A DNA stretch of 20,392 nucleotides, taken from a virus. The notes under the pieces were generated by a model, which did not search any database, was not told the origin of the DNA, and saw only the letters and a program-made list of their open reading frames with translations. The translations under genes were made by a program, and so were the position numbers. Shown here in pieces: positions 5,745-20,043 of the stretch. How positions within the stretch are numbered: position 1 is the stretch's first letter; each line of letters opens with the position of its first letter. The stretch spans positions 1 to 20,392 of the IMG/VR virus record IMGVR_UViG_3300002134_000002; one strand, 5' to 3'.

Positions 5745-7451
5745 ATGACAGGTATAAAAGACTATTCAACAACAGCTTTAAGTAACACTGAAGTAGGTGG
5801 TGTAAATATTGAAGAAGGTATGCTTCCTTCTACTCTTAATAATGCATTAAGAGCAGTCTTAGTAGACGTAAGAGAATGGTATAATGATTCTCAATGGGTA
5901 GTTTATGGTGATGGCGATTCTGCTTTTACTATCACTTATGGTAGTGCTACTACATTTACAGTAGATGGTGTAGATGTAACAACTTTCTACCATGTTGGTC
6001 GTAGAGTGAGAGCAGTAGGATCAACTACAGGAACTATTTACGGAACTATTTCAGTAACAACATTTTCTACTAATACAACAGTAACAGTTGTGTGGGATTC
6101 TGGATCCTTACAAAATGAAACAATAGCTGTTTCTATAGGAGCTTTATCAGCAACAAATAATTCTATTCCAGAAGCTGTAATTACAAATGTTAAAGTTGTA
6201 ACAGGAGCCGCAATTGATGCAGCTAAGATTCACGATGGCTCAGTTTCAAATGCTGAATTTGGTTATTTAGATGGGGTTACATCTGCAATACAAACACAAA
6301 TAAATACTAAACAAGCTACTATTACAGGTGCTGCTACAACTATTGTAACTAGTGATCTTACTGCTAGTAAAGCTGTTATATCCAATGCTTCTGGTAAAGT
6401 TGCTGTATCATCAGTAACAGATACTGAACTAGGTTATGTATCAGGAGTAACAAGTGCTATTCAAACACAAATAAACACAAAATTAACTGCCACAAATAAT
6501 TTATCTGATGTAACAAATACATCTACCGCAAGAACAAATTTAGGTTTAGCTATTGGTACCAATGTCCAAGCATACGATGCTGAACTTGAAGCTATTGCAG
6601 GATTAACTTCTGCTGCTAATAAAGGTATTCAATTTACTGGAGTAGGAACAGCCTCAGTATTTGATTTAACAACTGCTGGTAAAGCATTGCTAGATGACGC
6701 AGACGCTTCTACTCAAAGAACTACTTTGGGTTTAGGTACAATTGCAACACAAAACTCAAATAGTGTAGCTTTAACTGGTGGTTCAATTACAGGACTTGGT
6801 GATCCTGCAACTTCTTCTGAAGCTGCTACTAAAAACTATGTTGATAATTTAGTTGCTGGACTTAGAACAAGAGCTGTTGCAAGAGTAGGTTCAACTGCCA
6901 ATGTTGTAATTGCTTCTGAATTAGAAAATGGTGATACTATAGATGGTGTTACATTAGTAACTGGTGATAGAGTATTATTAAAGAATCAATCTACTGCATC
7001 GCAAAATGGTTTATATATTGTTGTAGCTTCAGGTGCTGCATCAAGAGATACAGAATTTGATACTATAGAAGAATTAGCTGGACAATTAATATTAATATCA
7101 GAAGGATCTGCTAATGCTGATGATTTATATTTATGTACAACTGATACTAGTGCAACACTAGGTTCTAGCACTATATCTTACACACAAGTATTTCCAAGTT
7201 CAGGTGGAACAGTAACGTCAGTTGCTGTAGCAGATTCAGGCTCATCAGAATTTACAGTAACTGGTAGCCCGATAGCAGCATCTGGAACTATTACACTTGC
7301 AGTAAATTCAATAGCTGCAACTAAGATTGGAACAGGGGTTGTAAGTAATACAGAATTTGGTTATTTGGATGGAGTAACTTCAGCTATCCAAACTCAAATA
7401 GACACAAAATCAACAAACGGATTTGCTATTGCAATGGCAATTGCATTATAA
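5745..7451 (+). CDS. Long tail fibre protein (virion-attached shaft)
   Basis: The product is 568 residues. The N-terminus (IKDYSTTALSNTEVGGVNIE, then LNNALRAVLVDVREWYNDSQW) is the widespread fibre N-terminal element that anchors fibres to the phage tail. It is followed by a beta-rich domain (FTITYGSATTFTVDG, a VGRRVRAVGST loop) and a long shaft with low-complexity Ala/Ser/Thr repeats. These include three copies of a GYLDGVTSAIQTQI unit, the NLSDV..TARTNLGL unit and the TKNYVDNLVAGLRTRA segment. A domain at about 380-480 (VIASELENGDTIDGVTLVTG, RVLLKNQSTASQNGLYIV) is common in phage fibres. It ends abruptly after the third repeat with NGFAIAMAIAL and carries no obvious receptor-binding tip. The downstream adhesin genes may provide tips. 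AGGAG at 5735-5739 sets the start. Confidence 0.85.
   Translation: MTGIKDYSTTALSNTEVGGVNIEEGMLPSTLNNALRAVLVDVREWYNDSQWVVYGDGDSAFTITYGSATTFTVDGVDVTTFYHVGRRVRAVGSTTGTIYGTISVTTFSTNTTVTVVWDSGSLQNETIAVSIGALSATNNSIPEAVITNVKVVTGAAIDAAKIHDGSVSNAEFGYLDGVTSAIQTQINTKQATITGAATTIVTSDLTASKAVISNASGKVAVSSVTDTELGYVSGVTSAIQTQINTKLTATNNLSDVTNTSTARTNLGLAIGTNVQAYDAELEAIAGLTSAANKGIQFTGVGTASVFDLTTAGKALLDDADASTQRTTLGLGTIATQNSNSVALTGGSITGLGDPATSSEAATKNYVDNLVAGLRTRAVARVGSTANVVIASELENGDTIDGVTLVTGDRVLLKNQSTASQNGLYIVVASGAASRDTEFDTIEELAGQLILISEGSANADDLYLCTTDTSATLGSSTISYTQVFPSSGGTVTSVAVADSGSSEFTVTGSPIAASGTITLAVNSIAATKIGTGVVSNTEFGYLDGVTSAIQTQIDTKSTNGFAIAMAIAL
6246..7409 (+). repeat. Three copies of a 22-codon shaft repeat within the long fibre gene
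   Basis: The unit, near GYLDGVTSAIQTQINTK with a preceding SNxEF/DTEL, occurs at 6246-6311 (residues 168-189), 6417-6482 (residues 225-246) and 7344-7409 (residues 534-555). Copies 1 and 3 are the closest in protein sequence (NAEF/NTEF then GYLDG), while copy 2 reads TELGYVSG. DNA identity is lower than protein identity, so these are old copies under protein-level constraint. They probably form trimeric coiled or beta-helical shaft turns. Confidence 0.8.
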
Positions 7452-7465
7452 TATAAGGAGAAAAT

Positions 7466-7792
7466 ATGGCACAAAACTTTAGAAGATACACAAGCAACGA
7501 TGTAGGCACATCAGCAGCAACTTTATTTACATCAGACAGTTACGACACTGTAGTAGGTATTTCTGTAGCGAATGTTGCAGCTACTTCTGTTATCGCATCA
7601 GTTTATATCAACGATGGAACAAATGACATCTATCTAGTTAAAGATGCTCCTATTCCAGTAGGTTCTGCATTACAAGTATTAGATGGTGGAGCTAAATTTG
7701 TAGTTCAATCAGGAGATGCTTTAAAAGTAATTTCTGATACTGCAAGTTCTTTAGATGTTTGGGTTTCCACAGTTGATGCAATTAGTACATAG
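7466..7792 (+). CDS. 108-residue beta-sandwich virion protein (fibre-region copy A)
   Basis: This 108-residue protein has alternating hydrophobic strands: TLFTSDSYDTVVGISVANV, ASVYINDGTNDIYLVKD, SALQVLDGGAKFVVQSGDAL and VISDTASSLDVWVSTVDAI. The order 'strand - INDG..IYLVKDAPIPVGSALQV - GGAKFVVQSGDALKVIS' is common to small structural proteins in marine phage tail regions. An AAGGAG site upstream of 7466 decides the start. The protein encoded at 10852-11178 has the same length and the same order of elements (D..I/E L, then VLEAGDILKIQSET). The two therefore look like distant members of one family. They bracket the adhesin array and might be attachment collars or fibre-base proteins. The function is inferred. 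Confidence 0.72.
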   Translation: MAQNFRRYTSNDVGTSAATLFTSDSYDTVVGISVANVAATSVIASVYINDGTNDIYLVKDAPIPVGSALQVLDGGAKFVVQSGDALKVISDTASSLDVWVSTVDAIST

Positions 7793-7801
7793 GAATTAAT
7801 T

Positions 7802-8347
7802 ATGCCGTTTATCGGAAATAAACCAACAGCAGTACCTTTAACAAGTGCTGATTTAGCAGATAGTATTATTACTTCTGCAAAGATTGTAGATGGAACTATT
7901 GTTAATGGTGATATTAATGCTAGTGCTGCTATAGCTGGAACTAAGTTATCTGGTGCTGGTAAAGTATTACAAGTGGTTACTGCTACTGATTTAACTCAAA
8001 GAAGTACAACATCAACCTCTTTTGTTACAGGCTCAAATACTTTATCATTATCTATTACACCATCTTCTGCTTCTAGTAAAATATATTTAGTTTGTACAAC
8101 AAGTGGATATACAGGTTCACAAGCAAGATACACAATTTATAAAGATGCAACAAATCTAGGAACTGCTGAAGGAATGTCTGACAAGCAAGGTGGTAATTGG
8201 GAGTCTATTGCCATGTCATATTTAGATTCCCCATCAACTACATCTGCAACAACTTATCAAGTTTATTTTAAAAGTGCTACTGCTGGAACTACTTATTTAA
8301 ACAATGGCAATACAGCATCAATAACAGCATTTGAGATAGGAGCATAA
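7802..8347 (+). CDS. Short tail-fibre adhesin, cassette 1
   Basis: The product is 181 residues. The N-terminus (PFIGNKPTAVPLTSADLADS) and a short repeat shaft (IITSAKIVDGTIVNGDINAS) are typical of marine phage fibre proteins. From residue 53 a C-terminal domain begins: GKVLQVVTATDLTQRSTTST, SLSITPSSASSKIYLV, SYLDSPSTTSATTYQVYFKS and ITAFEIGA. This tip domain is recurrent in phage fibres. The adhesin at 9806-10276 carries the same domain (GKVLQVV..TSTSFVT..ITPSS..KI..YDSPSTTS). It starts after an AGGAA site overlapping the previous stop, and its own stop overlaps the ATG of the following chaperone-like gene (TAATG at 8347). The pairing of adhesin and chaperone is repeated twice more downstream. 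Confidence 0.75.
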   Translation: MPFIGNKPTAVPLTSADLADSIITSAKIVDGTIVNGDINASAAIAGTKLSGAGKVLQVVTATDLTQRSTTSTSFVTGSNTLSLSITPSSASSKIYLVCTTSGYTGSQARYTIYKDATNLGTAEGMSDKQGGNWESIAMSYLDSPSTTSATTYQVYFKSATAGTTYLNNGNTASITAFEIGA

Positions 8348-8607
8348 TGGAAAATAAAATTATAAAAGCAATTCAAAAAATAAATCCAACAGCAGAAGTT
8401 TCTGTTAGCGGAGAAGATATAAATACTATTGTTTGGGAAAATGGAACAGCACCTATCTCCAAATCAGAAATAGAAGCTATGATACCAGTTGTAGAACAAG
8501 AAATGGCACAAGAAGAATTAGATAAAGAAACTAAAAAACAAGAAGCTAAAGCAATTATGGAGCAATTAGGATTAACCAAAGAACACTTAAAGGCATTAGG
8601 ATTATAA
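8347..8607 (+). CDS. Tail-fibre assembly chaperone candidate, cassette 1
   Basis: This 86-residue protein begins within the TAATG overlap of the adhesin stop. Residues 5-53 (IIKAIQKINPTAEVSVSGED, then INTIVW, NGTAPISK, VVEQEM) are 39/49 identical to residues 4-52 of the protein encoded at 10276-10626. The C-terminal part differs completely: a charged helix QEELDKETKKQEAKAIMEQL ending in LTKEHLKALGL. Small acidic proteins encoded directly after a fibre gene, with a conserved N-terminal half, are typical of fibre assembly chaperones that help trimerisation of the adhesin tip. A role as a structural cap cannot be excluded. The neighbouring adhesin starts at 8609, one base after this stop. Confidence 0.65.
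   Translation: MENKIIKAIQKINPTAEVSVSGEDINTIVWENGTAPISKSEIEAMIPVVEQEMAQEELDKETKKQEAKAIMEQLGLTKEHLKALGL
8359..8505 (+). repeat. Diverged duplicate segment, copy 1 (matches 10285-10431)
   Basis: This 49-codon stretch aligns without gaps to 10285-10431. Their proteins agree at 39 of 49 positions by direct comparison, and the DNA is also visibly similar (for example both start ATTATAAAAGCAATTCAAAA). Similarity ends at the C-terminal boundary, where the two genes diverge. Confidence 0.8.
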
Positions 8608-8608
8608 T

Positions 8609-9478
8609 ATGGCATATATCGGACGCACACCCATCATTGGAAATTATCAGGTACTAGACGCAATCGTAGCGACTACTACAGATACCTACGCATTAACTAA
8701 AGATGCTGTTGCAGTATTCCCACAAACTCCAGCTAATTGCATAGTATCATTAAACGGAGTTATTCAAGCACCTACCGATTCCTACACTATATCAGGTTCT
8801 GATATTGTATTTGCTTCTGCCTTAACTGGTACGGATTCTATAGATTTTATTACAGTATTAGGAGATGTATTAAGTATTGGAACACCAACTGATGGAACAG
8901 TTACTACTGCTAAACTTGTAGATAGTTCTGTTACTACAGCAAAATTAAATGATGGTTCTGTATCTCTAGCAAAATTAACGGCTACTGGAACTCAAGATGC
9001 TACCACTTTCCTAAGAGGAGATAATACTTTTCAAACTATTGGTGTTAATACTCCATTTTTTCAAGCAAGAAAAATAACTACTCAATCTGTTGCTCAAAAT
9101 GTAACTACAGTAGTTTTATTTGATAGTGAAGATTTTGATGATGACGGAGTATATGATCCAGCTACAGGAAAATTTGAACCTAGTGAAGCAGCATATTATT
9201 ATATATTTTCACAAATAGCATTTGCAACAAGTGGGGGTAATGAGCAAATTCAGATTTATAAAAATGGTACAACAGTTTTACAATGGTCGCAATTTGATGG
9301 TGCTTCAACAGAAAATCACAAAGCACAACAAGTTCAAAATATAGTGTACTTAAATGGTACAACTGATTATGTTCAAATAAGAGGAACAAATTCTAAATCT
9401 GGTGGTGCAGATTTAAGCACAAGTTTATTAGGAACAGGAGATGCTTGTGTGTTTTTAGCATATAAATTAATAGAATAA
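8609..9478 (+). CDS. Tail-fibre adhesin with C1q-like tip, cassette 2
   Basis: The product is 289 residues. Residues 1-90 (YIGRTPIIGNYQVLDAIVAT, FPQTPANCIVSLNGVIQAP, YTISGSDIVFAS, IDFITVLGDVLSIG) are the frequent marine phage fibre N-terminal module. Residues about 99-123 are a short shaft of TTAKL/SLAKL repeats. From about 148 to 289 the sequence resembles the C1q/TNF-like jelly roll: VVLFDSEDFDDDGVYDPATG, KFEPSEAAYYYIFSQIAF, IQIYKNGTTVLQWSQ, DYVQIRGTNSKSG and DACVFLAYKL. That trimeric fold is often used as a receptor-binding tip. The start at 8609 is one base after the previous gene. The stop at 9476-9478 lies two bases before the next chaperone-like gene. The N-terminal module is unlike the adhesins on either side. 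Confidence 0.78.
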   Translation: MAYIGRTPIIGNYQVLDAIVATTTDTYALTKDAVAVFPQTPANCIVSLNGVIQAPTDSYTISGSDIVFASALTGTDSIDFITVLGDVLSIGTPTDGTVTTAKLVDSSVTTAKLNDGSVSLAKLTATGTQDATTFLRGDNTFQTIGVNTPFFQARKITTQSVAQNVTTVVLFDSEDFDDDGVYDPATGKFEPSEAAYYYIFSQIAFATSGGNEQIQIYKNGTTVLQWSQFDGASTENHKAQQVQNIVYLNGTTDYVQIRGTNSKSGGADLSTSLLGTGDACVFLAYKLIE

Positions 9479-9480
9479 TT

Positions 9481-9804
9481 ATGACAATATCAACTAAAAT
9501 AAAACTATACGCAAACCAAGAGATAGACTTCTCTAAAGATGTTCTATTGCAAGACGATAGTAATGGCAAAGGTGCTTACATTAAAGAATGGAATCTTGAT
9601 ATTCCTAAACCTACAATGGCACAACTAGATGCCTTTGAAGCCGAAGCTACTACTTATGAGAACAATCAAAAGATTATACAAACTAGAAAATCTTTATATG
9701 GTGCTTGGGAAAAACAATTAGAAGAAATATACGATAACGGAATGGATAGCTGGAAAGCTAGAATAGCACAAATCAAAGCTGACAATCCAAAGGAGAATAA
9801 TTAA
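9481..9804 (+). CDS. Tail-fibre assembly chaperone candidate, cassette 2
   Basis: This encodes 107 residues, acidic to neutral, with an N-terminal beta segment (KIKLYANQEIDFSKDVLLQD), then WNLDIPKPTMAQLDAFE and a long helical C-terminal half (RKSLYGAWEKQLEEIYDNGM, DSWKARIAQIKADNPK). The 'IPKPTMAQLDAFE' element followed by a charged helix recalls phage tail-fibre chaperones and XkdW-like proteins; the assignment is by resemblance. It shares no clear sequence identity with the chaperones of cassettes 1 and 3, as its adhesin also differs from theirs, which fits a cognate-pair model. A two-base gap separates it from the adhesin and one base from the following gene, whose AAAGGAG site lies at its 3' end. 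Confidence 0.62.
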   Translation: MTISTKIKLYANQEIDFSKDVLLQDDSNGKGAYIKEWNLDIPKPTMAQLDAFEAEATTYENNQKIIQTRKSLYGAWEKQLEEIYDNGMDSWKARIAQIKADNPKENN

Positions 9805-9805
9805 T

Positions 9806-10276
9806 ATGGCACTTATAACATTAGGAGCAAATGCAATTACAGCGTTACCCTCTGGAGTAGGTGGTAAGGTTTTGCAGGTTGTTACTGCTACAACAACGAC
9901 AAATACATCTACTACTTCAACATCTTTTGTTACAACTGCTTTATCAGCTTCAATTACACCATCTTCAGATTCAAATAAAATTTTAATACAAATTCTTGGT
10001 GGTTCTTTTTATAATGTAACTGCTGGATATGGTTGTATTGCTACAATATTTAGAGACACTACTGAAACATCAGGTCAATCTTATGGAATAGGAAATACTT
10101 GGAGTGCAACAGCAAGAATACAAGTACCAGCAACTCTTGGAATATATGACAGTCCATCTACTACTTCTTCTATTACATATAGTTTAAGAATAAAATCAGA
10201 AAGTGCTAGTGGAACAGCTCAGTATATTCCTAATGCTGATTTGGGTACAATAATTTTAATGGAGATTTTAGCATAA
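9806..10276 (+). CDS. Short tail-fibre adhesin, cassette 3
   Basis: The product is 156 residues. After a very short N-terminus (ALITLGANAITALPSGVG) the domain shared with cassette 1 begins at residue 20: GKVLQVVTATTTTNTSTTST, SASITPSSDSNKILIQIL, GIYDSPSTTSSITYSLRIKS, ending TIILMEILA. Unlike cassette 1 it has no fibre-shaft repeats, so it is close to a free tip domain. AAAGGAG ahead of the ATG at 9806 sets the start. Its stop overlaps the ATG of the following chaperone (TAATG at 10276). It may be a recent duplicate of cassette 1 that has lost its shaft, or a tip module for another fibre. Confidence 0.72.
   Translation: MALITLGANAITALPSGVGGKVLQVVTATTTTNTSTTSTSFVTTALSASITPSSDSNKILIQILGGSFYNVTAGYGCIATIFRDTTETSGQSYGIGNTWSATARIQVPATLGIYDSPSTTSSITYSLRIKSESASGTAQYIPNADLGTIILMEILA
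9863..10276 (+). repeat. Diverged duplicate tip domain (matches 7958-8347)
   Basis: The C-terminal domains of the cassette 1 and cassette 3 adhesins begin with the same GKVLQVVTAT and share TSTSFVT, ITPSS..S.KI and DSPSTTS..TY in the same order. The DNA is also similar at the start of the unit (GGTAAAGTATT versus GGTAAGGTTTT). Between these blocks the sequences differ strongly, as expected for loops under selection to change binding. Confidence 0.65.
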
Positions 10277-10626
10277 TGAGCAATATTATAAAAGCAATTC
10301 AAAAAATTAATTCAACAGCAGAAGTTTCTGTTAGTGGAGAAGACATCAATACAATCACTTGGCACAATGGAACAACTCCTATATCTAAAGAAGACATTGA
10401 AGCACAATTCCCAGCAGTAGAACTAGAGATGGCTATGACTGATTTAAGACAAAAGAGAAATGCAGCACTTGCTAATTCTGATTGGTCTGTATTAACTGAT
10501 GTACCATTAAACCCTGCTATGAGATCTGCATGGATGAATTATAGAACTTTATTAAGAAATTTAACTAATGGGTTAACTACTGTAGAAGAAGCACAAGCAG
10601 TAACATTACCTCTACCACCAAAATAA
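10276..10626 (+). CDS. Tail-fibre assembly chaperone, cassette 3
   Basis: The product is 116 residues. The N-terminal half is nearly the same as that of the cassette 1 chaperone (39/49 identical over residues 4-52). The C-terminal half is different and recognisable: a charged segment RQKRNAALANSDWSVL, then PLNPAMRSAWMNYRTLLRNL, the pattern of phage tail-fibre assembly chaperone tail domains (APC type: RN..L..SDW......P.......W..YR..LR.L). This strengthens the chaperone call for the whole set. The start at 10276 overlaps the adhesin stop, so the two proteins are co-translated. The C-terminal exchange relative to cassette 1 suggests recombination at the domain border. It is the last gene of the adhesin array. 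Confidence 0.78.
   Translation: MSNIIKAIQKINSTAEVSVSGEDINTITWHNGTTPISKEDIEAQFPAVELEMAMTDLRQKRNAALANSDWSVLTDVPLNPAMRSAWMNYRTLLRNLTNGLTTVEEAQAVTLPLPPK
10285..10431 (+). repeat. Diverged duplicate segment, copy 2 (matches 8359-8505)
   Basis: This is the second copy of the 49-codon N-terminal segment of the chaperone genes. Ten amino-acid differences separate it from the first copy, and there are no gaps. The sequence after 10431 is unrelated to that after 8505. Confidence 0.8.
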
Positions 10627-10627
10627 A

Positions 10628-10801
10628 ATGCCAAGAAAATCTGCAACAGATGTAAGTTTGGAGTTTATCTGTAGAGAGATTCAAGAGCTTAAAGCTGAAC
10701 AAAAATTATTAAGATCAGACATCAATAAAGGCAAGGGTGCTGTATGGTTATTATTAATTATAGCTGGTATGGTAACTGGACTATTAAGCTATTTTAAATA
10801 A
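10628..10801 (+). CDS. Small single-span membrane protein, holin candidate
   Basis: ATG at 10628, one base after the previous stop, opens a 57-residue frame ending in TAA at 10799-10801. Residues 1-36 are polar and helical (SLEFICREIQELKAEQKLLR). Residues 38-56 form one clear membrane segment, AVWLLLIIAGMVTGLLSYF, with a terminal lysine. An amphipathic or coiled-coil N-terminus followed by a C-terminal span is the layout of XhlA-like and some holin proteins. The muramidase-like gene lies far away (19266), so lysis pairing is not evident from proximity. It could equally be a membrane anchor for tail or ejection functions. The gene is supported by tight spacing and the well-formed membrane segment. 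Confidence 0.68.
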   Translation: MPRKSATDVSLEFICREIQELKAEQKLLRSDINKGKGAVWLLLIIAGMVTGLLSYFK

Positions 10802-10802
10802 T

Positions 10803-10868
10803 ATGTTTCCCTATACAGAAGAAGAATATGAGTTTATAACTAAATACACATATGGCAAATACTTATAA
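10803..10868 (+). CDS. Possible 21-residue ORF bridging two genes
   Basis: ATG at 10803 follows the previous stop by one base and gives MFPYTEEEYEFITKYTYGKY plus one leucine before TAA at 10866-10868. It overlaps the next ATG (10852) by 17 bases. Neither start has a convincing ribosome site, so this mini-frame could pass ribosomes from the membrane-protein gene to the next gene by translational coupling. The peptide itself is acidic and aromatic. The call is weak. Confidence 0.3.
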   Translation: MFPYTEEEYEFITKYTYGKYL

Positions 10869-11178
10869 AAATGCTTTTTTTAAATTAGATACTACTGATC
10901 TAACTACAGTATATACCTGTCCTGCCAATACAACTGCTTTAATTAAAACAATTCAAATGACAAACGAACATGCTACAAACAATACTATAGAACTATTTAT
11001 AACAGATAGTTCTGCTTCTATTACATATGAATTCTACCATGAAGATATGTCAGCAGGAACTACATCTAATGGAGCTATAGGAACAATAGTATTAGAGGCT
11101 GGAGATATTTTAAAAATTCAATCTGAAACTGTTGATGTTGTAGAAGGAACTGTTAGCTTAGTAGAAATAGATTTTTAA
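10852..11178 (+). CDS. 108-residue beta-sandwich virion protein (fibre-region copy B)
   Basis: This 108-residue beta-rich protein reads AFFKLDTTDLTTVYTCPANT, TALIKTIQMTNEHATNNTIE, LFITDSS, TIVLEAGDILKIQSETVD and GTVSLVEIDF. Its length and order of strands parallel the protein encoded at 7466-7792, with 'T.LYT - I..I...N - I.LFI.D - VLEAGD.LKI' matching 'T.LFT - V.ISVAN - VYIND - VVQSGDALKVIS'. It starts without a good ribosome site and may depend on coupling from upstream. The next gene starts one base after its stop. A structural role in the tail or fibre base is likely but not shown. Confidence 0.72.
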   Translation: MANTYKNAFFKLDTTDLTTVYTCPANTTALIKTIQMTNEHATNNTIELFITDSSASITYEFYHEDMSAGTTSNGAIGTIVLEAGDILKIQSETVDVVEGTVSLVEIDF

Positions 11179-11610
11179 ATGGACGCAATTAGTATTCCAA
11201 AAGAGAGTATTAAAACTGTATGGAATTTAGTTGAAAATGATATTACTAAAGCCTTAATTAGATCTGGCGGCTATGCCAATTCTGATTACTTTAAACAACA
11301 ATGTTTAGAGGGCTTTTTTCAGTTATGGATTGTCTGGGATTCAGAGAACAAAAACAAGTACTTTGGAGTCTGTGTAACTGAGATTATTGTACGACCTTTA
11401 CAAAGATGCCTTAATATTCGTATAATGACAGGTAGACACAGAGAAAAATGGCAACATTTATTAAAAAAAATAGAGGTCTGGGCAGCGTTAAATAACTGTG
11501 ATAAAATGGAGCTTATTGCAAGACCAGGTTGGGAAAGAATTTTGAAGAATTTTAAATACTCTAAGAGTCATGTATTGTTAGAGAAACCATTAAAAAGAGG
11601 AGTAAAATAA
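11179..11610 (+). CDS. GNAT-fold phage protein (T7 gp13/internal-virion type)
   Basis: The product is 143 residues. The central strand pair IVWDSENKNKYFGVCVTEII, the segment NIRIMTGRHREKWQHLLKKI and the end KMELIARPGWERILKNFKYS follow the acetyltransferase (GNAT) fold seen in small podovirus proteins such as T7 gp13, where it is not known to act as an enzyme. The classic acetyl-CoA loop (Q/RxxGxG/A) is not evident; GRHREKW at 85-91 is the nearest candidate. So a structural or assembly role in ejection-protein incorporation is more likely than acetylation. The gene sits at the head of the ejection module, and its stop overlaps the next ATG (TAATG at 11610). The family call is by pattern recognition. 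Confidence 0.68.
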   Translation: MDAISIPKESIKTVWNLVENDITKALIRSGGYANSDYFKQQCLEGFFQLWIVWDSENKNKYFGVCVTEIIVRPLQRCLNIRIMTGRHREKWQHLLKKIEVWAALNNCDKMELIARPGWERILKNFKYSKSHVLLEKPLKRGVK

Positions 11611-15275: not shown

Positions 15276-18200
15276 ATGTCTAATGAGTTGTATCTCAATG
15301 ATACAAATCTAAAAGATCCTGTCCAAGATCTAAACGATCCTTTAGCAGATCCTACTCAAGTACAAGAACAAACACCACCTGGATTCTTCTCAACTCTACG
15401 TAATCCTATGGAGTTAATTTTTGAAGAATCTTTACCTGCATCCTTATATCAATACGTTACTGGTAATACTAAAAAAGTCCAAGCTGAAAAAGCATTAAAA
15501 TTCTTACAAGCATACCCTCAATTACAAGGAACAGGTCAGTATAAAGAAGCTGAACGTGTATACAAAAAATATGGTTATCTGTTAGAAGAAGGTGAACAGT
15601 CTTTTGATGCTGGTGAAATAGTTAAAATGGCTAAGAAATATCCTGGAGTAGTTGGTGGGGAGTTAGTTAATATGCTATTAGCGGATCCTTATTTAATATT
15701 ATTACCTGCTACTTTGTTTGCTAAATTAGGTAGAGGTGTTGTTAATGCTGGTAAACTTAAATACTCAAGTAAGTTTAAATCATTACCTTCAACCACTAAA
15801 GATCTAATTGCGTTACAAGCTAAACGAGATATTAAACATGGTGCAATGGCATCTGTGTTATTACCATTTGCTTTTAGCACTGGATTACAATTAGGTGAAA
15901 AAGGTGAGATCTCAGCAAGTCGTACTACAGCAGAAACTACTTTTGGGGCAACAGCTGGATTACTTACCTCATTAGCATTTGGTGGTATATCAGCTTTAGC
16001 TAGTAGAGATATAGGTATTGCTCCAGAAAAGTTTAATGCAGCATTTATTAATCGTATTAAAAGTTATAAGAATCCTTTAGACGCTTTAGAATTTAATGAA
16101 AATGGAGTTATTAGATCACTAGATGATACCTTAAAAGATCTTAGATCTACAATTAAAGATTTAGATCCAGTAACAAGACATGAAATTATTCTTGGTGGTA
16201 AACCTTTTAGATTTACTAAAGCTGAAGCTGAAGCAGCTTCTATTACCTCTAGTGTAAGAACAGTTAGAGAATCAGCTTATGATGCCATTAAAAGCTCTGC
16301 TATTAAAGCTAGTAGTCTAGGAGCAATAGGTGCAGTTGCTCAATTCTTAACAGAAGAAGATGAAAAATTAAAAGAATCTTTAATTGGTTTTAGTGCTGGA
16401 GTAGGTGTGTACGCTGCATATAAAGGATTAGCTAAAGCATTTGGTTGGGCAAAGAAAGTTCCTCAAGCTACAGTTGATTTTGAAATAATGGAACAAGCTA
16501 CTAATATTCTAAATGCTAGAGTAAATAGCGAAGCTAGTAATGTTATTGTTATGTTTAAAAATGCTGTTCCTGAACCTACTAGTCGTAGGAAAATATTCCA
16601 TTACATACAAGGCACCACAGTTGATGATAAGTTAAATTTCAATCCTAGAGGCAGAGCCTTAACTAAACTTGACTTAACTTCATTGGAATTAGAAGGTGCA
16701 GAAATGATACGTAAAACATTAGATACTATTTACGATACATTACAAAGAGAATTTAAAGACATTCCTTTTACATTTAACTATAGAAGCAATTACTTACCTT
16801 TAATATTTGATGACTTTCGTGGTGCAAATAGATTTAATTACACAGATGATACAATACGTAGCTTTGGTAATGCCTCTACTTCAAGTAGATTTTTCTATAA
16901 ACGTACCTTTGATTCTATTAACGAAGCATTAAAAGCTGGTAAAAGAATTAAACCTGGCATGGATGATCCTGCTGAATTGTTGAGAGTATACACATTTGCT
17001 TTATCTAAAGCATTAACTAATAAAAACTTAATACATTATTTAAGCAATAGAAATATTGTTGTTGGTAAAACTGCTAGTAACAACCCAATAAGTCTTCGTT
17101 TATTTTACAATAAAAGAGATAGACAATTTATACCTAAGTATTACGAAGAACAGTTTAGACCATATAAGCATCGTATTTTAGGAGATCAAGAAGTTTATGT
17201 ACATCAAGATATAATAAAATCTTTAGAAATGATATTTGATGCAAGTGATGAGCCAAAACTAATGGGAGCATTGTTTACTGTCAATCTAATGATGAAACGA
17301 TTAGCTGTAGCAGCGTCATTCTTTCATGCTGGTGCTTTAGTTGAAAGTATGTTTTTTGCTGGAACTTCATTTAAAACAATAGGTAAATTTTTAAATCCAA
17401 AAAGCAGACAAGAAATTCTTGAGATGATTGAAAATCCATCACTAACAATTAAGAATATGGATAATCTTCAAACAGCAGCTAATAAATTTGGGTTTAAAAA
17501 TCTAGTTGATTTTGCTAAAGCATCTAGATTAAAAATTTCTACTCCAGAAGATGTTGGCTTTGATAGATTCTATGCAAATATAAGACAAACAGAACAGCTT
17601 ATTAATCATCAATTTGGTCTTAAAGCAACTGGGAAAATAGAAAAGGTTTTTAAATGGTTTGATAGAATTACTTGGGATCGTTTATTTTCACAAGCTAAAA
17701 TTTATACATTCTTAAGACAGCTAGATAAAATAGTAAAACCAGGAGATACTAAATCTGTTGTTTATCATAAAGCTACAATAGCCGCACAGTTTACTAATGA
17801 TGCTTTTGGTGGACAAGACTGGACAGCAATTACACAAAAAATAACAAATCCAACATACAAAAAATTAGCACAGACTTTATTTGCTCCAGGCTCTAGAGGG
17901 TATATGCAGTTACTAATGTTTGCTCCTGATTGGACAATAAGTAATCTTAGAATTATTGGAAAGAGTCTTCCTTTGTTTGAATCAGATCCTATGGCTAGAA
18001 GTATGTATCAAGCATACTTTGCAAGAGCAGCATTAATGTATGGAACTATTGGTACTGGATTAAACTATATGTTTAGTGGTCATTCTCAATTAGAAAACAA
18101 AGATCCTACTAGAATAGATCTTGGTGATGGACAAGTACTTACATTTAGTAAACAATTAATGGAGCCATTCCATTGGATTACTGATCCTCAAAATACTGCT

Positions 18201-18551
18201 CTTAAAAAAATAGGATCCTTACCAAGAGGAGTAATCGAGATACTTACTAATAAACAATATTTAACTACTAAGTGGAGTCCTAATTTAACTACTAAAGATG
18301 ATAACGCTATTGAAAAAGCCATAAAGATTGGTGGTAAAGCAGGTGAAAAATTCTTGCCTATTTGGTTACTTAGTTCTGTAAGAACAATATCTGATAGATA
18401 CGAACAAGAAGGTATTAGTGCAGACTTAGCTTCTGACGTTGGCTTAGATTATGTATTAGGACAACTAGGTCATCCAAGATACAAAGGCCCTCGTACCAGT
18501 GCATACAAATTAAAAGGCTTAGCTAGATCTCCATACGAAACACTGTTCTAA
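15276..18551 (+). CDS. Large ejection / internal virion protein (1091 residues)
   Basis: This is the largest product, with a size like the large ejection proteins of podoviruses (T7 gp16 is about 1300). The N-terminus is polar (DPLADPTQVQEQTPPGFFST). Several hydrophobic or amphipathic segments occur: PGVVGGELVNMLLADPYLIL (about 133-152), MASVLLPFAFSTGLQLG (about 190-208), TFGATAGLLTSLAFGGISA, and SFFHAGALVESMFFAGTSF in the later half. A C-terminal region from about 835 onward holds NDAFGGQDW (residue 841) and FAPDWTISNLRIIGKSLP (residue 882), with hydrophobic segments after it (RAALMYGTIGTGLNYMFSG). No lysozyme or protease motif was found. It probably forms part of the trans-envelope conduit. 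The exact family is unknown to me. A 44-base gap follows the stop. Confidence 0.6.
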   Translation: MSNELYLNDTNLKDPVQDLNDPLADPTQVQEQTPPGFFSTLRNPMELIFEESLPASLYQYVTGNTKKVQAEKALKFLQAYPQLQGTGQYKEAERVYKKYGYLLEEGEQSFDAGEIVKMAKKYPGVVGGELVNMLLADPYLILLPATLFAKLGRGVVNAGKLKYSSKFKSLPSTTKDLIALQAKRDIKHGAMASVLLPFAFSTGLQLGEKGEISASRTTAETTFGATAGLLTSLAFGGISALASRDIGIAPEKFNAAFINRIKSYKNPLDALEFNENGVIRSLDDTLKDLRSTIKDLDPVTRHEIILGGKPFRFTKAEAEAASITSSVRTVRESAYDAIKSSAIKASSLGAIGAVAQFLTEEDEKLKESLIGFSAGVGVYAAYKGLAKAFGWAKKVPQATVDFEIMEQATNILNARVNSEASNVIVMFKNAVPEPTSRRKIFHYIQGTTVDDKLNFNPRGRALTKLDLTSLELEGAEMIRKTLDTIYDTLQREFKDIPFTFNYRSNYLPLIFDDFRGANRFNYTDDTIRSFGNASTSSRFFYKRTFDSINEALKAGKRIKPGMDDPAELLRVYTFALSKALTNKNLIHYLSNRNIVVGKTASNNPISLRLFYNKRDRQFIPKYYEEQFRPYKHRILGDQEVYVHQDIIKSLEMIFDASDEPKLMGALFTVNLMMKRLAVAASFFHAGALVESMFFAGTSFKTIGKFLNPKSRQEILEMIENPSLTIKNMDNLQTAANKFGFKNLVDFAKASRLKISTPEDVGFDRFYANIRQTEQLINHQFGLKATGKIEKVFKWFDRITWDRLFSQAKIYTFLRQLDKIVKPGDTKSVVYHKATIAAQFTNDAFGGQDWTAITQKITNPTYKKLAQTLFAPGSRGYMQLLMFAPDWTISNLRIIGKSLPLFESDPMARSMYQAYFARAALMYGTIGTGLNYMFSGHSQLENKDPTRIDLGDGQVLTFSKQLMEPFHWITDPQNTALKKIGSLPRGVIEILTNKQYLTTKWSPNLTTKDDNAIEKAIKIGGKAGEKFLPIWLLSSVRTISDRYEQEGISADLASDVGLDYVLGQLGHPRYKGPRTSAYKLKGLARSPYETLF

Positions 18552-18595: not shown

Positions 18596-19297
18596 ATGTA
18601 TAAATCAATACTTGTCATATCTGACACTCATGTTCCTTACCATCACAAGGATTTATTTCCTTTTCTAAAGGAAGTTAAAAAACAACTTAACCCAGATAAG
18701 GTGGTTCATATCGGTGATGAATTAGATAAACACGCTTTATCATTTCACGATAATGATCCAGATCTTCCTAGTGCAGGAGATGAACTAAGAATATCATTAC
18801 CTATTATAAAAGAAATGGAGAAGCTATTTCCTCACGTTGATCTTTTAGATTCAAATCACGGATCGCTTGTTTACAGGAGATCATTAAAATATGGAATACC
18901 AAAAGCATATCTTAAACACTACAATGATTTTCTACAGGTAGGTAAAGGATGGCAATGGCATGATGACCTAACACTTACAACTCCTCTTGGCCCCGTTTAT
19001 TTCTGTCATGGAAAGATTGCTGATGTACTTACACTTGCTCAATCTATGGGAATGAGTTGCGTACAAGGGCATTATCACAGTTCATTTAATATTAAATACT
19101 ATGGAAATTCTTTAGGGTTGTATTATGGATTACAAGTTGGCTGCCTAATTGATAAAGACTCATTAGCTTTTAGATACAACAAAACTCAAAGGGCTAGACC
19201 TATCATAGGCTGTGCTGGTATAATACAAGGACTACCTAAACTTATACCAATGGTGTTAGATAAACATGGACGATGGATCGGAAAAATTTATTCCTAG
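18596..19297 (+). CDS. Metallophosphoesterase, calcineurin-like
   Basis: The 233-residue protein has the ordered metal-binding motifs of the calcineurin-like superfamily: SDTHVP (D10, H12), GDELD (D41, D44), SNHG (N87, H88; the usual first glycine is replaced by serine), CHGK (H138) and GHYH (H159, H161). These hold the dimetal centre that hydrolyses phosphoesters. The substrate is not evident; phage members have been suggested to act on nucleic acids or nucleotide signals, and the sequence does not decide this. The start ATG at 18596 has no strong ribosome site. Its 3' end overlaps the start of the muramidase-like gene by 32 bases, an overlap larger than others in the window. The enzyme is likely cytoplasmic, since no signal peptide is visible. 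Confidence 0.85.
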   Translation: MYKSILVISDTHVPYHHKDLFPFLKEVKKQLNPDKVVHIGDELDKHALSFHDNDPDLPSAGDELRISLPIIKEMEKLFPHVDLLDSNHGSLVYRRSLKYGIPKAYLKHYNDFLQVGKGWQWHDDLTLTTPLGPVYFCHGKIADVLTLAQSMGMSCVQGHYHSSFNIKYYGNSLGLYYGLQVGCLIDKDSLAFRYNKTQRARPIIGCAGIIQGLPKLIPMVLDKHGRWIGKIYS

Positions 19298-19697: not shown

Positions 19698-19798
19698 TGA
19701 AGTTTATCAATCACATTGCAGGTAGAATAGAAAATTATACTTGGCGTAAGTTGTACGCTAACAGGTGCAATAGAAAACATAACTGTAGGTGCAAATGA
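19697..19798 (+). CDS. 33-residue Cys- and Lys/Arg-rich peptide, function unknown
   Basis: ATG at 19697 in a TAATG overlap opens a 33-residue frame, KFINHIAGRIENYTWRKLYA then NRCNRKHNCRCK. It is very basic, with three cysteines in a C-x5-C-x-C pattern and a histidine between, so metal binding is possible but not shown. Its TGA overlaps the ATG of the next gene (ATGA at 19795), so the coupling on both sides supports translation. No relatives are recognised. Confidence 0.5.
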   Translation: MKFINHIAGRIENYTWRKLYANRCNRKHNCRCK

Positions 19799-20043
19799 AA
19801 AGTGCTGCTTGGCAACGTAAAGAAGGTAAAAATCCAAAAGGTGGATTAAATGCTAAAGGTCGTGCAAGTTATAAAAGACAAACTGGTGGTACTTTAAAAG
19901 CACCAAGTAAAAAAGTTGGTAACAAACGCAGAGCATCTTTCTGTGCAAGAATGAGTGGCATGAAGTCTAAACTTACTTCTGCTAAAACAGCTAGAGATCC
20001 CAACAGTAGAATTAATAAATCTTTAAGAGCATGGAATTGTTAG
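19795..20043 (+). CDS. DUF6321-like basic protein
   Basis: The product is 82 residues from ATG at 19795. A GTG six bases upstream is possible, but the ATG matches the usual family start (MKSAAWQRKEGKNPKGGLNA) and shares an ATGA overlap with the preceding frame. Recognisable segments are SAAWQRKEGKNPKGGLNAKG, RASYKRQTGGTLKAP, KRRASFCARMSGMKSK and the end SLRAWNC. This small, highly basic family occurs in phages and bacteria and is of unknown function; composition suggests binding to nucleic acid. Its ARDPNSRINKSLRAW end matches the usual C-terminal part. A GTG-started gene begins one base after its stop. Confidence 0.72.
   Translation: MKSAAWQRKEGKNPKGGLNAKGRASYKRQTGGTLKAPSKKVGNKRRASFCARMSGMKSKLTSAKTARDPNSRINKSLRAWNC

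Follow-up and report, generated by a model that had tools for sequence, protein, structure and literature searches.

Fibre-tip families pair with the N halves of adjoining chaperone-like proteins in a three-cassette array of a pelagiphage-like podovirus

Fibre-tip genes in a group of related phage loci are paired, far beyond chance, with one part of the small gene that follows them: the family of the tip goes with the family of the N-terminal half (N half) of the downstream protein. An earlier note on this DNA had suggested a rule of cognate tip and chaperone. By comparison of families the rule is sharper than first stated, the tip family going with the N half and the C-terminal half (C half) varying more freely. 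The array is best read (probability about 0.8) as a system of modular host recognition, in which tips would be served by dedicated, class-specific assembly chaperones whose N half matches the tip family.

The window (the whole 20.4-kb stretch of the virus record that was analysed) carries capsid, scaffold, tail-tube-like, fibre and internal-protein genes, all in one direction. Its capsid protein is 54% identical to that of pelagiphage HTVC106P, and short stretches of its DNA are 82–83% identical to HTVC203P, Lederberg and HTVC100P (7414–7824) and to HTVC115P (19798–20042). The window thus appears to be a fragment of a pelagiphage-like podovirus, and the host is probably a SAR11 bacterium, since capsid and short DNA stretches resemble those of pelagiphages. 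Downstream, at 15276–18551, lies a gene for a protein of 1091 aa, well conserved in the lineage and without Pfam or PHROG match; judged by where it lies, this may be a virion protein that is internal or ejected. A metallophosphoesterase gene (18596–19297; Pfam Metallophos, 3.8e-5) has the virion genes on one side and an endolysin-like gene on the other.

Three tip genes, each followed by a small gene encoding 86–116 aa, had been described in the earlier note, and all six open reading frames were recovered in place. The features of the array and its borders are as follows.

7466..7792, + strand: V, small protein at the 5' border of the array, annotated as putative virion structural protein in HTVC203P, Lederberg and HTVC100P
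7802..8347, + strand: tip gene 1, TA family, with MPFIGN-type N-terminal segment (frozen TA profile, 114 bits)
7957..8082, + strand: start of tip 1, repeated at 9862–9981 (80–88% in blocks; repeat families D2, D4 and D5)
8347..8607, + strand: chaperone-like protein 1, ka N half and Cy C half (N_ka 87 bits, C_Cy 49 bits)
8356..8507, + strand: ka N half, a 152-nt direct repeat at 10282–10433 (80%; repeat family D1)
8609..9478, + strand: tip gene 2, a C1q tip behind an N-terminal domain of MAYIG type (Pfam C1q, phrog_18673)
9481..9804, + strand: chaperone-like protein 2, kb (XkdW) N half and Cx C half (Pfam XkdW; N_kb 107 bits)
9806..10276, + strand: tip gene 3, TA family, with short N terminus (AlphaFold model, family profile)
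10276..10626, + strand: chaperone-like protein 3, ka N half and Phage_tail_APC C half (Pfam PF16778)
10628..10801, + strand: 57-aa protein 3' of the array, also present in L142, a close relative
10852..11178, + strand: second copy of V, homologous to the 7466 gene and forming the 3' border of the array in the lineage

The genes are tightly packed. The first base of chaperone-like genes 1 and 3 is also the last base of the tip gene before them (8347 and 10276), chaperone-like gene 2 starts two bases after tip 2 (9478/9481), and one base separates cassette from cassette. Both the start of the TA tips and the ka N half recur as direct repeats, ∼1.9 kb apart and ∼80% identical, which flank more diverged tip sequence. 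Inside the array, neither an inverted-repeat switch nor a terminator stands out. Mu-type inversion of the tips was considered and is not supported: within 7400–11200 of this fragment record the inverted repeats are short and imperfect only, and all six genes lie on one strand. The two homologous V genes (7466–7792 and 10852–11178) frame the array and could be attachment points of the tips.

As the earlier note had proposed, cassettes 1 and 3 share a tip domain (150 aa aligned at 41% identity, E 4e-16), and cassette 2 has a C1q-like tip, matching Pfam C1q (PF00386) at 5.5e-7 with 30.3 bits against a curated cut-off of 23.7. The N-terminal part of tip 2 matches the tail fibre family phrog_18673 (4e-47). 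For tip 3, an AlphaFold model (pLDDT 89.5) finds TNF-like adhesin tips and lectins as its best PDB matches, among them the TNF-like lectin PLTL (TM 0.61–0.74), the tip of Bdellovibrio Bd2734 and BC2L-C; Bd2734 is described as a TNF-like fibre tip (PMC10769870). In entry 9efk, the TA family profile hits the final stretch of the solved chain orf22 (8e-22). The models of tip 3 and chaperone 3 are of single chains, predicted from alignments without rows from annotated phage records. The proposal that the tips differ in type holds for sequence family (TA versus C1q) and not clearly for fold, the model of tip 3 being TNF/C1q-like as well. A few types of N-terminal segment (MAYIG/MPFIGN, MAIITL, MASILK and MAITKI) recur across all tip families and look as if they were separate anchoring modules.

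The small proteins are built in two parts. In chaperone-like proteins 1 and 3 the first 56 residues are 73% identical (E 2e-25). Chaperone-like protein 2 matches Pfam XkdW (PF09636) over residues 14–59 (5.7e-16, 58.4 bits against a cut-off of 24.6), and the kb family profile matches the XkdW structure 2hg7 (2.3e-5). Profile–profile comparison detects no homology between the N halves of proteins 1 and 3 and that of protein 2, which bears out the earlier view of two related N-terminal halves and an unrelated one. Homology of all N halves had been suggested by PHROG_9114, which matches all three proteins; the N halves compared alone gave nothing, and a mixture of members within PHROG_9114 is the more likely cause of the match. 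The C halves differ in all three proteins (Cy, Cx and APC), and that of protein 3 matches Phage_tail_APC (PF16778) over residues 56–112 (5.3e-10, 39.4 bits against a cut-off of 26.6). Chaperone-like protein 3 also matches PHROG tail fibre assembly families. Its model (pLDDT 94.6) consists of a helix, a beta-hairpin and a short helix, followed by a helical C half. In a viral fold library this model matches ‘phage tail assembly chaperone protein’ (best E 1.4e-6); in the PDB its best match is weak (2kz6, E 0.046), and Pam3 gp25 and Mu Tfa are absent among the best 50 PDB matches listed.

A total of 429 loci were fetched. The first scans of viral contigs, with the array genes and two anchors (7466 and 15276) as queries, gave loci L012–L270, plus ten annotated isolate loci. 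Four main tip families (TA, C1q, T3 and tip4) and four N-half families (ka, kb or XkdW, kc and kd) were found, which pair nearly one to one, TA with ka, C1q with kb/XkdW, T3 with kc and tip4 with kd. Over all loci, 311 of the 315 non-redundant adjacent pairs lie on this diagonal, with a Cramer's V of 0.984 between tip family and N-half family; the loci are related and the events not independent, so the pairing figures describe a pattern and not strict probabilities. Unsupervised clustering gave the same four-by-four pairing (164 of 167 pairs), with the three C-half families mixed. A held-out set of 190 further non-redundant pairs came from three more scans, two that used chaperone profiles and one directed at bacterial genomes. 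Scored with profiles that had been frozen in advance, 175 of its 177 pairs with a classified tip fall on the diagonal, and at one of the two exceptions (L398) the C1q gene sits one gene further upstream. In loci fetched only by anchors outside the array, all pairs (75/75) fall on the diagonal. Mismatches are few and involve tip4-like tips with kb or ka; some chaperone-like genes follow no recognisable tip.

One instance of the pairing lies outside marine pelagiphages. A scan of bacterial genomes with the XkdW profile returned six loci, and a Deltaproteobacterium contig (L426:3401-4318) carries a C1q tip followed by an XkdW-type chaperone, as the rule predicts. Three enterobacterial XkdW matches (L427–L429) look spurious, and L427, the one inspected, lies in a transglutaminase-like reading frame. 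Within families, the divergence of tip and N half is weakly correlated (TA, r 0.19, p 0.02; C1q, r 0.10, p 0.11), and recognition would therefore act at the family level. The C half is only partly free, because kb almost always occurs with Cx and kd always with Cy; ka and kc mix all three C halves, and Phage_tail_APC is the C half of most kc proteins. The cognate-pair rule of the earlier note thus stands as a match of tip and N half, and not universally as one chaperone for every tip, since in some arrays two or three tips precede a single chaperone. At four loci (L003, L009, L106 and L108), one kc chaperone follows a run of three T3 tip genes (∼200 aa); the tip may be hetero-oligomeric there, or a single chaperone may serve all three.

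In the mechanism proposed, each cassette would encode a short TNF/C1q-like tip protein, probably trimeric, together with a dedicated small assembly chaperone, and the three pairs would be expressed together. The N half, of ∼50 aa and modelled for ka as a helix, a beta-hairpin and a short helix, would recognise the tip family by direct contact and guide folding or trimerisation. The helical C half, with Cx, Cy and APC interchangeable, would do a generic job, most likely oligomerisation or release. Tip and N half would have to match, so that recombination would move both together, by exchange of whole cassettes, by nested insertions or through junctions in the middle of the chaperone gene.

An identical pairing is predicted if the small proteins are permanent parts of the virion, i.e. 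tip caps or adaptors that share in receptor binding, and not transient chaperones. In favour of this, Mu Tfa reportedly remains at the tip of the fibre, and the chaperones of Alteromonas phages are proposed to be transient caps (PMC10579305). Against it, Pam3 gp25 was not detected in virions (PMC9608196), and C halves that are shared and exchanged would suit a general function in assembly better than one in binding receptors. Permanent residence in the virion is the considerably less probable role of these proteins, although it is the strongest of the competing explanations.

A second possibility is that neighbouring genes merely travel together by recombination, so that the pairing would be without functional cause. 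The tip and small genes do overlap or nearly touch, and tips are swapped by recombination with conserved DNA on both sides. However, association is far weaker between segments that are equally close or belong to one gene (V 0.50–0.74 versus 0.98): Cramer's V is 0.73 between tip and C half, 0.74 between N half and C half of one gene, and 0.50 between the tip and the N-terminal segment that its gene also encodes. Distance alone, therefore, does not explain the pairing. Moreover, the pairing is kept at a distance in nested cassettes. Arrays of the form C1q [TA ka] kb occur at L282, L287 and L379, and of the form C1q [T3 kc] kb at L147 and L157; in 10 cases kb follows another chaperone, with C1q upstream.

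The position of an exchange junction in a close relative also argues against mere linkage. In L142 and L191, the DNA nearby and downstream is 92–97% identical to the window, but a C1q tip and a kb N half take the place of the TA tip and ka N half of cassette 3. The chaperone there is a composite, its first half matching the window gene at 9481 (85% in DNA) and its second (APC) half that at 10276 (81% in DNA); in L142 the exchange junction thus falls inside the chaperone gene. In L101, other genes replace cassette 1 between stretches 87–89% identical to the window. Where two loci have a neighbouring gene in common but tips of different families, their N halves are also different in 100 of 104 pairs, these pairs not being independent of one another. 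Comparison of related loci strongly supports the earlier suggestion that tip and chaperone are exchanged together. Linkage without function is very improbable. Scarcely credible is the view that the small genes are unrelated accessory genes (regulators or parts of toxin–antitoxin systems) adjoining fibres by chance: 8347 has weak, below-cut-off Pfam matches of such kinds, but family, fold and neighbourhood all indicate tail assembly and the pairing holds across hundreds of loci.

Several tips of different type in a small podovirus had been regarded as unusual. The comparison does not support this: arrays of this lineage commonly hold two or three cassettes, framed by the V genes, and the isolated pelagiphages HTVC010P, HTVC203P and HTVC026P carry similar arrays. 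Since relatives and isolates have such arrays, the array is ordinary for these phages and the pairing rule is the finding. A broader statement would be that marine phages have a near-strict, family-level code between tips and N halves, with interchangeable C halves, so that one virion could make and display several tips of different families and take up new tips as cassettes; it is tentative, and its chances are put at a little under even.

The modular fibre chaperone has been known from single examples, and hundreds of natural pairs now show which half carries specificity. XkdW thereby receives a likely role, as the N half of a chaperone for C1q tips, and four tip families with four N halves yield clear, cheap and testable predictions. 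The pairing would explain how the very abundant SAR11 phages exchange recognition parts and keep fibre assembly; it suggests a simple code by which parts for host recognition could be swapped with assembly of the fibre left intact.

Among known systems, the Tfa proteins of Mu and lambda type are encoded downstream of the fibre gene and are modular, with a tip-specific N part. Similar traits are present here, namely a small gene directly downstream of the fibre-tip gene and a variable N part that tracks the tip, the C part being less specific. The small proteins of the window differ in that none of the three matches a Tfa family of Pfam (E up to 1), and no invertible segment is seen in the window. 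XkdW, whose gene adjoins a fibre gene in the Bacillus element PBSX, has no function assigned in the literature covered; by Pfam, the kb N half belongs to this family (PF09636, 2hg7), and in these loci it is tied to C1q tips. Similarly, Phage_tail_APC (PF16778) is here one of three interchangeable C halves.

A close likeness is to Pam3 gp24/gp25, a fibre gene with a TNF-like tip and a two-domain chaperone; the variable N domain of gp25 binds the TNF-like fibre tip and its C domain is conserved and helical (PMC9608196). Pam3 has one pair per phage, whereas the window has several pairs of shorter proteins, and the loci have four N-half and three C-half families. In Alteromonas phages A5/V22, a fibre and its cognate chaperone are described as part of a host-recognition module common to distant marine phages (PMC10579305); there a single pair varies in an insertion, whereas the array loci exchange N-half families. 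Hypervariable metaviromic islands of marine phages, including relatives of HTVC010P, list C1q, tail fibre, XkdW and tail fibre assembly genes, and no report of the pairing rule was found in the accessible part of that study (PMC3909814), nor was a description of tip/N-half pairing found in the available text of the open literature searched. On the best reading, the small proteins would assist the assembly of fibre tips as class-specific chaperones, which would place them beside the modular Tfa and Pam3 gp25.
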